DNA of 64,000 nucleotides, taken from contig DATGJN010000103.1 of NCBI GenBank assembly GCA_035295165.1, positions 1 through 64,000 of the forward strand, given 5' to 3'. The notes beneath the pieces were generated by a model. The model saw only the letters and a program-made list of their open reading frames with translations, ran no database searches and was not told the DNA's origin. The position numbers and the translations under genes are program-made. The stretch comes from a bacterium (GTDB taxonomy: Bacteria > Sysuimicrobiota > Sysuimicrobiia > Sysuimicrobiales > Segetimicrobiaceae). Of the stretch, positions 2,103-5,515 are shown in pieces (position 1 is the stretch's first letter; the number at the start of each line of letters is the position of its first letter).

Positions 2103-3659
2103 TTACTTGTTGAGCCAGGTCGTCCAGTACATCGGCACCCCGAGCGGCGTCCGGAAGAACCCCTTGACGTTGGGCGTGAGATAGTTCACCGATGGCGTAT
2201 AGTACAGCGGGATCGTGCCGCCGACGTCGGTGTTGTAGATATTCTGGATCTCATAGTACAACTGCGCCCGCTTCTTGGGGTCAAGCTCCTCGGCTGCCGC
2301 CTTCACCATCTGCACCGCGCGGTCGCTCGGCTGGTAGCCCGTGTTCATCTTGGGATCGATGAAGAAGAACTGCACGAGCTGGTCGGGGTCCATCATCCCG
2401 TTCGTCCACTGGTAGCCCGAGATCAGATCATAGCTGCTCTTGTACCACGCGGCCGACAGCGCCGAGCCGTCGACCTCCTGGATCTGCACCTGGAGGCCGA
2501 TCTCCCCCCACATCTGCTGGGCGAGGACCGCGTTGTCGCGGCCGATCTGGCTGCCGCTCGGCAGCTGCAGCGTGATGCCGCTGCGCCCCGTGGGATACTT
2601 TGACTCCTTGACGAGCTGCTTCGCTTTCGTCAAGTCGTAGGGCAGGCTGGCGCGCGCGTTCCAGTAGAGGCCGCTTTTCGGCATGAACGAGTTCGCCGAC
2701 GTCGCCAGCCCGCCGGTCGCACGGTCCACGAACACCTTGCGGTCCAACGCCAGGCTCATCGCCTGGCGGACCTTGACGTCGTCGAACGGGGGACGTGTCG
2801 TCTGAACGACCATAAAATACACTTGTTGCTGCGGGAGCGGCAGGAGCTGTCCGCGCGGGTCGCGCTTGAGCGCAGCGATCTGGCTGAAGGGGATCGCCTC
2901 GGAGCCGTTCAGATCGCCGGCCTGGATCTGGAGGACTCTCGTCGTGTCCTCGGCGACCTGTTTGATGATCACCTGATCGAGGTAGGGGTACGGCTTGCCG
3001 TCCGGTGCCATCTCCCAGTAGTGCGGGTTGGCGTCCAGGGTCAGATGGTCGTTCGGCACCCAGTCTCGGACCATGAACGGTCCCGTGCCGATCGGTTTCG
3101 TAAACTCCTTTTGCCCGATCGCCTCGACCTCGTCCTTTGGGAAGATGGCGTTGGAGATCATGGCGAGCCGCGCGAGGATGCTGGCCACCGGCGAGTTCAT
3201 TACGATCGCGACCGTCGTGTCGTTCAGCTTGGCAAACGTCTTGACGTCCGCGAGGCTCCACTTGTAGACGCCGTACGCGCGGGAGCGCTCGAGGGAGGCG
3301 ATGACGTCGTCCGCGGTCACGGGCTTCCCGTTGTGGAAGCGGGCCTGCCGCAGGTAGAACGTGTAAGTGAGGCCGTTCCCGCTCACCGTCCACCGCTCGG
3401 CGAGCGCGGGTTCGACGGCGGTCGCATTCGCGTTCGCCCGCACGAGGCCCTGGGCGATGTTCGAGATCGTCGTGCTGTCCGTTCGCGCCTGCGTCCACAT
3501 GGGGTCGAGCCGCAACGGGATCGTGGTGTAGGCCCACGTCAGCGTGCCGCCGCGCCGGCCCGCCTGGGCCGCCGCGACCCTCGCGGCGCCTCGCCACCCC
3601 TCGAGCGCAACCAGCCCCGCGCCCCCAAGTGCCCGTCCCAAGAGCTCACGCCGTTTCAC
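2103..3659 (-). CDS. Peptide/nickel ABC transporter substrate-binding protein (SBP family 5)
   Basis: This is an extracytoplasmic solute receptor of 518 residues that delivers peptide-like substrates to the two permeases downstream. The N-terminus carries a twin-arginine-like export signal (MKRRELLGRAL followed by a small-residue hydrophobic stretch), and the mature part starts near GGTLTWAYTT. The family 5 pattern TFYLRQARFHNGKPVTADDV is plain near residue 105, as is KPIGTGPFMV near residue 190. The start codon is GTG, chosen because a strong GAGGAGG lies upstream of it. It is the first gene of the operon. The ligand is unknown. Confidence 0.92.
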   Translation of the reverse strand: MKRRELLGRALGGAGLVALEGWRGAARVAAAQAGRRGGTLTWAYTTIPLRLDPMWTQARTDSTTISNIAQGLVRANANATAVEPALAERWTVSGNGLTYTFYLRQARFHNGKPVTADDVIASLERSRAYGVYKWSLADVKTFAKLNDTTVAIVMNSPVASILARLAMISNAIFPKDEVEAIGQKEFTKPIGTGPFMVRDWVPNDHLTLDANPHYWEMAPDGKPYPYLDQVIIKQVAEDTTRVLQIQAGDLNGSEAIPFSQIAALKRDPRGQLLPLPQQQVYFMVVQTTRPPFDDVKVRQAMSLALDRKVFVDRATGGLATSANSFMPKSGLYWNARASLPYDLTKAKQLVKESKYPTGRSGITLQLPSGSQIGRDNAVLAQQMWGEIGLQVQIQEVDGSALSAAWYKSSYDLISGYQWTNGMMDPDQLVQFFFIDPKMNTGYQPSDRAVQMVKAAAEELDPKKRAQLYYEIQNIYNTDVGGTIPLYYTPSVNYLTPNVKGFFRTPLGVPMYWTTWLNK

Positions 3660-3861
3660 ACCGCACCTCCTCGGGTCGCGGGCGAGCCCGCCTTTCCTTC
3701 GGCATTTCGCCGCCCGCAGCGGAAATCTTCTCGGGGCGACGGCGCGCGGGCGGGATGCGGTGTGGTGAAGCCGATCGGGCGAGCGGTTGGAACGACGGCA
3801 ACAACGAGGCGCGGCCGGACGAGGGTTCTCGCCCGGCCGCGCTGCGAAACGCCGAGTCCCG

Positions 3862-4086
3862 CTACCGAGACGTGCTTCCTGCCGCCACGGAGGCGTCGAC
3901 GGTAGCCGACGCGCCGACCTCCGGACTCGCGACGGCGGTGTTGGAGTCGTCGGGCACCAGATTGACCGGCTGTACCGGCACCGGCACGGGCTCCGGGTAA
4001 ATCTGCGTGCCGGCGTGCGCCGTTGTGGCGGCGGGGCTCAGCGCCAGAACCGCGCCGAGCGTGAAGACGGCGGCGATGCGACGCAT
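3862..4086 (-). CDS. Small secreted protein, copy 1 of a tandem family
   Basis: This is a 74-residue protein of unknown function. It starts MRRIAAVFTLGAVLALSPAA, a classic Sec signal peptide ending near AHA. The mature part is short, Pro/Val-rich (YPEPVPVPVQPVNLVP) and then Ala/Ser/Thr-rich. The start at 4086 was chosen because AAGGAGGGG lies directly upstream; the longer open frame has no such site. It is the last and most divergent of three neighbouring genes sharing a near-identical signal peptide layout. It lacks the YLQ-N-Q tail of the other two. I do not recognise the family. Confidence 0.65.
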   Translation of the reverse strand: MRRIAAVFTLGAVLALSPAATTAHAGTQIYPEPVPVPVQPVNLVPDDSNTAVASPEVGASATVDASVAAGSTSR

Positions 4087-4179
4087 TGTCCACCCCTCCT
4101 TACTAGTGCGGTGGTGCCGTCCCGACCAAAAAGCACGCCGGCCGGAGGGGCGTCCCTCCGGCCGACGCGCCTCCACCCC

Positions 4180-4389
4180 CTACTGGCTCTGCTGGTTCTG
4201 CTGCAGGTAGACGGGGATGTTGTTGGTCGTGTTGAGCTGCGGGGTCTCGTCGGCGCTAGTGTTCATCGTGACATCGGGCGTCGAGGTGACCGGGTGGGAA
4301 GAGCCCTGCGTGTTGTCGTCCGCCATCGCGGCGGCCGGCGCCAGGGCCAGGAGCGCTCCCAGGCTGAGCATTGCGAGAACTCGCTGCAT
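4180..4389 (-). CDS. Small secreted protein, copy 2 of a tandem family
   Basis: This 69-residue secreted protein of unknown function has a signal peptide (MQRVLAMLSLGALLALAPAA, cleavage expected near AMA-DD). The mature part begins DDNTQG, is rich in Asn, Thr and Ser, and ends PVYLQQNQQSQ. An AAGGGAGG ribosome site precedes the ATG. The DDN-[ST]-QG start and the YLQ-N-Q ending are shared with copy 3, so the two arose by duplication. There are no Cys residues and no lipobox, so a free or weakly wall-associated peptide is more likely than a lipoprotein. Function cannot be inferred. Confidence 0.7.
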   Translation of the reverse strand: MQRVLAMLSLGALLALAPAAAMADDNTQGSSHPVTSTPDVTMNTSADETPQLNTTNNIPVYLQQNQQSQ

Positions 4390-4480
4390 AACGACTGCCT
4401 CCCTTATGGTTCTTGCCGGAATCTCAGCGGGGACGCGGCGGGCGAACGATGCCCGCTCGGCCGTCGCGCTCCAACTGGCG

Positions 4481-4705
4481 TTACTGGTTGTTCTGCAAGT
4501 ACACGGGCGCCTGCAGGTACGCGGGTACGCCGTCTGACGGATCGAGCTGCTGGGCGCCGTTTCCGTTGTCGGTGCTTGTCACGTCGACATTCGAGCTCGA
4601 CAGGGTCGTCGGGAGATTGCCCTGCGAGTTGTCGTCCGCCAGCGCGGCAACCGGTGCCAGCCCCACTACGGCCCCAAGGGCGAGCATTGCGAGGACCTGA
4701 CGCAT
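4481..4705 (-). CDS. Small secreted protein, copy 3 of a tandem family
   Basis: This 74-residue secreted protein is the first gene of the array. The signal peptide MRQVLAMLALGAVVGLAPVA is followed by ALADDNSQG. The mature part is Ser/Thr/Asn-rich and ends with PAYLQAPVYLQNNQ, in which the YLQ motif occurs twice. The internal ATG at 4705 was chosen because GGGAAAGGAGG sits just upstream of it. A promoter with TTGACA and TAGAGT lies about 80-110 bp upstream and faces this gene. It is divergent from an HxlR regulator, which suggests that the array is the regulator's target (inference). No known family recognised. Confidence 0.7.
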   Translation of the reverse strand: MRQVLAMLALGAVVGLAPVAALADDNSQGNLPTTLSSSNVDVTSTDNGNGAQQLDPSDGVPAYLQAPVYLQNNQ

Positions 4706-4786
4706 CGGTGGTTCCTCCTTTCCCTGCGGCCCGGGCATTCGCACCCGACCGCTTCTGTAGTTGTAGCCGCTTCCCTAACGCTAGTG

Positions 4787-4837
4787 ACTCTATCACCATA
4801 ACTTACTATTGTCAAGTGGCTTGTATTATGATAGTAT
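4787..4837. promoter_or_regulatory. Divergent promoter pair with overlapping -35 boxes and an inverted repeat
   Basis: On the minus strand TTGACA (4810-4815) is followed after 17 bp by TAGAGT (4787-4792) and fires toward the small secreted protein array. On the plus strand TTGTCA (4809-4814) is followed after 17 bp by TAGTAT (4832-4837) and fires toward the HxlR gene. The two -35 hexamers overlap, so the promoters should compete for polymerase. TACTAT at 4804-4809 and ATAGTA at 4831-4836 form an inverted repeat around them, a plausible HxlR-type operator. The whole segment is an AT-rich island in GC-rich DNA. Confidence 0.6.
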
Positions 4838-4923
4838 GTAACATGTTGGTAAGGAACGCGGACGGAAAATTGAGAAAGGATAGGGGCTCGCAAACCCTCA
4901 AGGGGGAAGAGGGGAGGCTATTT

Positions 4924-5262
4924 ATGGAGGGCGGCGCTCATATTTGTCCCAGGTATCGCAGGGCGATCGAACTGGTGGGCAAGCGCTGGACCGGCGGGAT
5001 CATCCGCGCCTTGATGGATGGCCCCCGGCGGTTCTCGTCCCTCTTGGATGCCGTACCGGGGATGCACGATCGGGTGTTGTCCGAGCGGCTAAAGGAACTG
5101 GAAGCGGCGGAGGTTATCCGGCGCCGCGTCTATGCGGAGACCCCGGTTCGGATCGAATACGAGCTGACCGAGAAAGGGCGCGAGCTGGAGAAGGTGGTCG
5201 AGGAGATGCAGCGGTGGGCGAACCGCTGGATGCCGGCCCCCGCGCAGTCGGACGGCGCCTGA
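4924..5262 (+). CDS. HxlR-family winged-helix transcriptional regulator
   Basis: This DNA-binding repressor or activator of 112 residues matches the normal HxlR length. The family start is visible: CPRYRRAIELVGKRWTGGII near residues 8-27, with a single Cys at position 8 in the place where redox-sensing HxlR proteins (YodB, HypR) have theirs. FSSLLDAVPGMHDRVLSERL follows as the recognition helix region, then LEAAEVIRRRVY as the wing and YELTEKGREL near the end. The ATG at 4924 was chosen because GAGGGGAGG lies upstream; the frame is open further upstream but without homology. It is divergent from the small secreted protein genes and probably autoregulated through the shared promoter. Confidence 0.9.
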   Translation: MEGGAHICPRYRRAIELVGKRWTGGIIRALMDGPRRFSSLLDAVPGMHDRVLSERLKELEAAEVIRRRVYAETPVRIEYELTEKGRELEKVVEEMQRWANRWMPAPAQSDGA

Positions 5263-5288
5263 TCGCGCGTTTGCTAAGGCGTCGTTGA

Positions 5289-5501
5289 TCAGCCCGGTTG
5301 TCGCCCGGGACGGCGCTGTTGTTCCCGGGCCTTGCGCTCGCGCAGCACCTCCCAGCACCGTTCGAGCGTCGTCTGGATGCGTGCGAGGCGAGCGCGGTCA
5401 GCGTCGCTCGCGTCGCCCTGAGACTCCTTGTCCCACAGCTTGTGTTCCTCGTGCGCCAAATCGTTGATGCGGTGAAAGATCTCGTGCTCCTGTTCCTCCA
5501 T
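5289..5501 (-). CDS. DUF2630 family small protein
   Basis: This cytoplasmic helical protein of 70 residues belongs to DUF2630, whose members are about 80 residues. The family pattern is clear: EIFHRINDLAHEEHKLWD, then ARLARIQTTLERCWEVLRER and a basic tail. It is predicted to be two helices, possibly a helical hairpin. The biochemical role is unknown. It sits 14 bp behind the HAD phosphatase gene with its own GAGAGGAG ribosome site, so the two are co-transcribed. It is convergent with the HxlR gene. Confidence 0.8.
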   Translation of the reverse strand: MEEQEHEIFHRINDLAHEEHKLWDKESQGDASDADRARLARIQTTLERCWEVLRERKAREQQRRPGRQPG

Positions 5502-5515
5502 CGGCGTCTCCTCTC

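Follow-up and report, generated by a model that had tools for sequence, protein, structure and literature searches.

Paired genes for small Sec-exported proteins beside a divergent YodB-like regulator, candidate envelope stress proteins of uncultured bacteria

Three adjacent genes for small exported proteins, termed here P1, P2 and P3, were characterized in a 64-kb stretch of bacterial DNA (the window), and their products were found to belong to an undescribed protein family from one family of uncultured bacteria, probably of soil origin. The array faces a divergently oriented gene for a YodB-like regulator of the HxlR type, and we give roughly an even chance to the reading that P1, P2 and perhaps P3 act as small stress proteins of the envelope under the control of this regulator. 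The best hints as to function, the regulator and the conserved promoter element next to it, had both been overlooked in the preliminary description of the array.

The three open reading frames (74, 69 and 74 aa), each with its own ribosome site and signal peptide, lie exactly where that description had placed them, at 3862-4705 on the minus strand, with P1 (4481-4705) transcribed first, followed by P2 (4180-4389) and P3 (3862-4086). Each begins with an ATG preceded by a purine-rich ribosome site and encodes a signal peptide of the classic Sec pattern with an AxA-type site at its end. In P1, the signal peptide comprises residues 1-23 and is followed by a mature part of 51 aa (DDNSQG...PVYLQNNQ) with a net charge of -6; the mature part of P2 spans 46 aa (DDNTQG...PVYLQQNQQSQ; net charge -5). 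In P3, a signal peptide resembling those of P1 and P2 precedes a mature part unlike theirs, which is Pro/Val-rich, 49 aa long and has a net charge of -4. The three genes have orthologues, in the same order, in two genomes of the same genus, G001 and G002. As noted on first inspection, P1-P3 have neither Cys nor a lipobox, yet Cys does occur in the gene that stands third in G001 and in G002.

The reading frames are coding and under selection. In the genus comparisons, dN/dS was 0.39-0.42 for P1, 0.18-0.33 for P2 and 0.51-0.62 for the more weakly constrained P3; between G001 and G002, the in-frame values were 0.42 for P1 and 0.18 for P2, with 0.51 for P3, versus 0.87-8.5 in the shifted-frame control. 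Judged by these substitution patterns, the mature parts of P1 and P2 are under purifying, not positive, selection. When ORFs of 35-135 aa were filtered for a ribosome site and a signal-peptide pattern, the whole window yielded P1-P3 only. That all three are chance reading frames, or that P1 and P2 alone are real, might be argued from the shortness of the ORFs, the GC-richness of the genome, the weak constraint on P3 and the outcome of a codon-usage caller trained on the large genes of the window, which called P1 and P2 and missed P3. This alternative appears exceedingly improbable in view of the frame specificity of purifying selection, the orthologues, ribosome sites and signal peptides, and the occurrence of just three such ORFs, all adjacent, in 64 kb. 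For P1 and P2, the frame-specific selection together with the ribosome-site and signal-peptide filter led us to reject chance or non-coding ORFs. Homologues with a signal peptide were found both within the genus and in the wider bacterial family, and the codon statistics are those of coding rather than non-coding DNA, contrary to the outcome that would have refuted the preliminary description. Taken together, the sequence data indicate that P1, P2 and P3 are real genes for proteins predicted to be exported by Sec.

The preliminary description regarded the array as three tandem, related genes, which holds for P1 and P2 but not for P3. The mature parts of P1 and P2 are homologous (z 7.5, with none of 2000 shuffles scoring as well), identifying the two as true paralogues, whereas P3 resembles them in the signal peptide alone: its mature part is unrelated to that of P1 (z -0.1) and to that of P2 (z 0.8), and a set of three equal paralogues was therefore rejected. 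The mature part of P3 matches that of the gene in third position at the same place in G001 and in G002 (z 5.5 and 6.6). The suggestion of duplication and divergence under selection, also made at the outset, is supported by the homology of P1 and P2 and by their purifying dN/dS. In the tree, P1 proteins group with P1 proteins (support 0.98) and P2 proteins with P2 proteins (support 0.91), indicating that the duplication predates the diversification of the genus and that both copies have been retained since. The best conserved mature segment is the C-terminal tail, PVYLQNNQ in P1 (4484-4507, minus strand) and PVYLQQNQ in P2 (4192-4215, minus strand), in which the residues P, V, Y, L, Q and N are invariant across the eight aligned genus members.

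Directly 3' of P2, folding revealed a hairpin followed by a U-run (4129-4174, minus strand), a likely terminator. The region 4115-4180 folds with -45.7 kcal/mol (z -4.1), and a hairpin with a U-run between P2 and P3 is kept in all three genus genomes (z -4.1, -4.5 and -5.5), with a sequence in the window genome that differs from that in the sister genomes. Given this strong hairpin, P3 probably forms a unit of its own or is reached by read-through, so that the array probably consists of P1-P2, the likely terminator and then P3. A second terminator-like hairpin after P3 (3809-3842, minus strand; 15 pairs) was found by a pattern scan with a background of 1.0 per region and is weak evidence when taken alone. 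No Rfam match to a structured RNA element was obtained within 3600-5400.

With a cut-off of E below 1e-3, a profile built from 24 members recovered 49 related small exported proteins, encoded at 41 loci, 7 of them tandem, in 11 of the 12 genomes of the bacterial family, and members outside the building set scored down to E 7e-12. In 31 genomes of the order that lie outside this family, E reached 8e-4 at best, and relatives there are accordingly not claimed. The profile relies heavily on the signal peptide, and the mature parts outside the genus are unlike those of P1 and P2, many of them sharing a G-x-[VI]-A-G motif instead; with such a profile and such differing mature parts, common descent of the whole peptide family seems likely rather than proven. 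The initial impression that the proteins match no known family was supported, as no convincing relative emerged from Pfam, NCBIfam or PHROG; the PHROG matches were limited to two, each to a single member, near E 0.01, and a profile search of the PDB returned chance-level matches alone (best E 0.3). Collections of phages, plasmids and viral contigs contained no relative of the peptides, and a phage or plasmid origin was rejected on these grounds.

Several further members and neighbours of the family were recorded. A second genus-wide member, with the C-terminus PVYLQGNGQGDGNGQ, is encoded at L033:4379-4582, L034:4253-4453 and L075:1477-1677; in G000 and G002, the member with this ending lies near a dihydrodipicolinate-synthase-like gene (ORFs read by eye), with no HxlR gene beside it. 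A subgroup of exported peptides of 49-50 aa from two genera (L125:1032-1181, L131:1013-1165 and L134:1006-1155) carries one Cys where the mature part begins and a PQ-rich tail. Immediately upstream of a family peptide gene, again in two genera, a protein of 255-262 aa is encoded (L148:4980-5747 and L138:1969-2757; 69% mutual identity, no match in a Pfam search), in which a VLIVE[TA]CFA[GE] stretch recalls caspase-like peptidases. In two genomes, family peptide genes adjoin a gene for an exported YncE-like beta-propeller with a cupredoxin domain (L144:5154-6461 and L147:6917-8239).

The divergent gene (4924-5262, plus strand) encodes a YodB-like HxlR/DUF24 regulator with a single cysteine, Cys8. 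Its HxlR domain matches PF01638 with E 6e-31 (106.6 bits versus a cut-off of 20.8), and the closest solved structure is that of Bacillus subtilis YodB (5hs7, E 3e-29). Cys8 aligns with the first cysteine of YodB, the redox cysteine C6, and is the sole cysteine in all seven regulator orthologues of the bacterial family. The P1-P3 array and the divergent regulator are kept together in three genomes of the genus, while the outer neighbours vary. Proteins of the HxlR type can act as activators too. In YodB, quinones S-alkylate C6, and diamide treatment leads to a disulfide between C6 and C101' (reviewed in PMC10458429); C101 has no counterpart in the window regulator, so that any switch would need a one-cysteine mechanism. 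The catDE operon of B. subtilis, which serves to degrade catechol, is under the control of YodB and CatR (PMC6212828). The system described here shares with the YodB/CatR electrophile response the HxlR/DUF24 type of regulator and the position of the N-terminal redox cysteine, and orthologues of the regulator face DoxX, or peptides together with DoxX and superoxide dismutase. It differs in that the divergent genes in the window genus encode small exported proteins, not detoxifying enzymes, and in that the window regulator has one cysteine and YodB three. A second HxlR paralogue in the genus (G000:C7:31587-32529, G001:C62:4869-5820 and G002:C115:35901-36845) is divergent from a YceI gene, pointing to HxlR-YceI pairing as a general feature of this group. 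Beyond the regulator gene, the window contains a gene for a DUF2630 protein (5289-5510, minus strand) beside a HAD hydrolase gene.

The regulator gene and P1 are separated by divergent sigma-70-like promoters with overlapping -35 boxes (4787-4837, both strands), namely, TTGACA-17-TAGAGT towards P1 on the minus strand and TTGTCA-17-TAGTAT towards hxlR on the plus strand; the promoter scan yielded three promoter-like sites versus 0.1 expected in shuffles. The same overlapping geometry is present in all seven orthologue genomes, although the divergent gene changes. A pattern search of the 12 genomes of the bacterial family, with one mismatch allowed, showed that a conserved 26-bp element, TTGTCAAGNNNCTTNNNNNNTGNTAG (4809-4834, plus strand), occurs exactly once in each of seven genomes, always beside this regulator, and is missing from the five genomes that lack a regulator orthologue; the reversed control gave 0 matches. 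The single site per genome suggests a local regulator with one operator in each genome. Conservation of the element is mostly that of promoter sequence, and we propose that, beyond the promoter, it may contain the HxlR operator, for which it is the candidate site.

The genes adjoining the regulator in more distant genomes recur. Its orthologue faces YceI in G005 and DoxX in G008 and G010; in the latter two genomes, genes for small exported peptides lie at a distance of 1.7-1.8 kb from DoxX, and they form a tandem pair in G008 and probably also in G010. In G004, which belongs to another genus, the regulator faces two small exported peptides, followed by DoxX and then by an Fe/Mn superoxide dismutase. 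HxlR genes were found within 2.5 kb of six family loci, versus 0.13 expected, and DoxX genes within 2.5 kb of four, versus 0.26 expected; as these statistics count orthologous loci, they correspond to about three independent cases each. YceI adjoins peptide genes at one locus, which is not significant, and in the rest of these genomes the majority of family members have no redox regulator as a neighbour. In Mycobacterium tuberculosis, DoxX, SodA and SseA form an oxidoreductase complex (PMC6930017). These neighbourhoods also bear on the idea that the peptides are produced in quantity as structural or surface material (for a matrix, a spore-like structure or as filler of the envelope) and that they lie beside hxlR owing to general control by stress or growth phase instead of a role in redox defence. 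Such a role would fit the strong ribosome sites, the low-complexity mature parts rich in Asn, Thr, Ser and Pro, and the several paralogues per genome, but we consider it unlikely, because the single conserved promoter element next to a YodB-like regulator, together with the recurrence of DoxX among the neighbours, favours a stress role that is more specific.

Whether the conserved tail could itself be a signal was considered as well. P1 and P2 would then be precursors of secreted signalling peptides, with a short tail peptide being sensed by neighbouring cells or re-imported by an oligopeptide transporter. Precursor size, the Sec signal peptide and the conserved C-terminal tail are indeed shared with the Phr/PapR peptides, and an oligopeptide/dipeptide-type ABC operon encoding a solute-binding protein and two permeases lies on the same strand directly downstream of P3 (233-3659, minus strand). 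However, this importer adjoins the array in the window genome alone, and the 12-kb neighbourhood of the array lacks it in either sister genome, so that a link to it was rejected; no TPR receptor, the partner of Phr/PapR peptides, was recognised among the scanned neighbour genes; members from other genera lack the tail; and the conserved partner is the YodB-like regulator. A signalling role of this kind accordingly strikes us as quite improbable.

The charge of the peptides argues against an antimicrobial role. Among 35 family members, the mature net charge ranges from -8 to 0, with none positive, and mature Cys is absent from all 35, with one present in the few shorter relatives found later (L125, L131 and L134). 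The antimicrobial option of the preliminary description, by which the peptides would be bacteriocin-like, draws on their small size, secretion and paralogy, and on mature parts that vary where the signal peptide is conserved. It is nonetheless very unlikely to be correct, given that the mature parts of P1, P2 and P3 are acidic, that all 35 members are neutral to strongly acidic, that neither an immunity gene nor one for dedicated export was recognised next to the conserved array, and that selection on P1 and P2 is of the purifying kind. The more generic surface or signalling options offered there are possible. AlphaFold2, run with five sequences, gave low confidence throughout (pLDDT 54, pTM 0.14), which fits, but does not prove, disorder of the mature peptides.

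Since the genome encodes Omp85, the cell has an outer membrane, and Sec export would lead first to the periplasm. Two of the relatives are metagenome assemblies, Centralia_MAG_47 and Centralia_MAG_233, deposited as 'Bacillota bacterium', a label that the outer membrane makes uncertain; their isolate name suggests that the relatives come from soil. Small Sec-exported stress proteins are known from enterobacteria, namely, the DUF1471/YhcN/BhsA-McbA proteins (PF07338), of which BhsA/YcfR is induced by chlorine and other stresses (PMC4092069). Like these, the proteins described here are small and Sec-exported, form several paralogues per genome, in subfamilies of low mutual identity, and are confined to one bacterial family. 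Unlike DUF1471, a folded domain of ~70 residues, the mature parts encoded in the window measure 46-51 aa and are probably disordered, and P1 and P2 lie beside a YodB-like regulator, their proposed controller. None of 24 members matched PF07338; NCBIfam gave weak YhcN matches only (best E 0.003, two members) and one match to Asr (E 2e-5, one member), confined to the signal peptide (residues 1-31) and below the Asr cut-off. The window peptides thus resemble BhsA/YhcN in kind and are not homologous to them.

The favoured reading, stress-switched envelope proteins, starts from what the sequences show, namely, the genes, their selection, the signal-peptide pattern, the joint retention of array and regulator in the genus, the conserved promoter element and the recurring neighbours; the steps that follow, from repression and sensing to cleavage, periplasmic location and protection, are inferred. 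A reduced HxlR dimer would occupy the shared promoter, where the -35 boxes overlap, and repress both its own gene and P1-P2. Modification of Cys8 by quinones, other electrophiles or oxidants would cause HxlR to leave the DNA, P1-P2 would be made, and P3 would perhaps be made by read-through from P1-P2. The P1 and P2 precursors would be exported by Sec and cut after AxA, leaving in the periplasm ~46-51 aa peptides that are acidic and probably unstructured, with the conserved PVYLQ-x-NQ tail probably serving as the functional contact. Their likely job would be envelope protection under oxidative or electrophile stress, beside or instead of functions of the DoxX, YceI and superoxide dismutase type. 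A more far-reaching version, in which a lineage-specific family of disordered acidic exported peptides forms a dedicated quinone/electrophile-stress arm, with a YodB-type cysteine switch acting on secreted peptides in place of detoxifying enzymes, and in which these peptides protect or regulate membrane quinone and DoxX-type redox systems from the periplasmic side, is doubtful and is offered as speculation.

At the level of approach, tiny proteins left unnamed by sequence databases can be brought together by a signal-peptide-led profile combined with promoter sharing. If the proposed role is true, an undescribed family of exported small proteins would join the electrophile/oxidant stress response, and a bacterial group known here from metagenome assemblies alone would offer a concrete handle for testing the role of such proteins, consisting of one regulator, one promoter element per genome and two conserved target genes.
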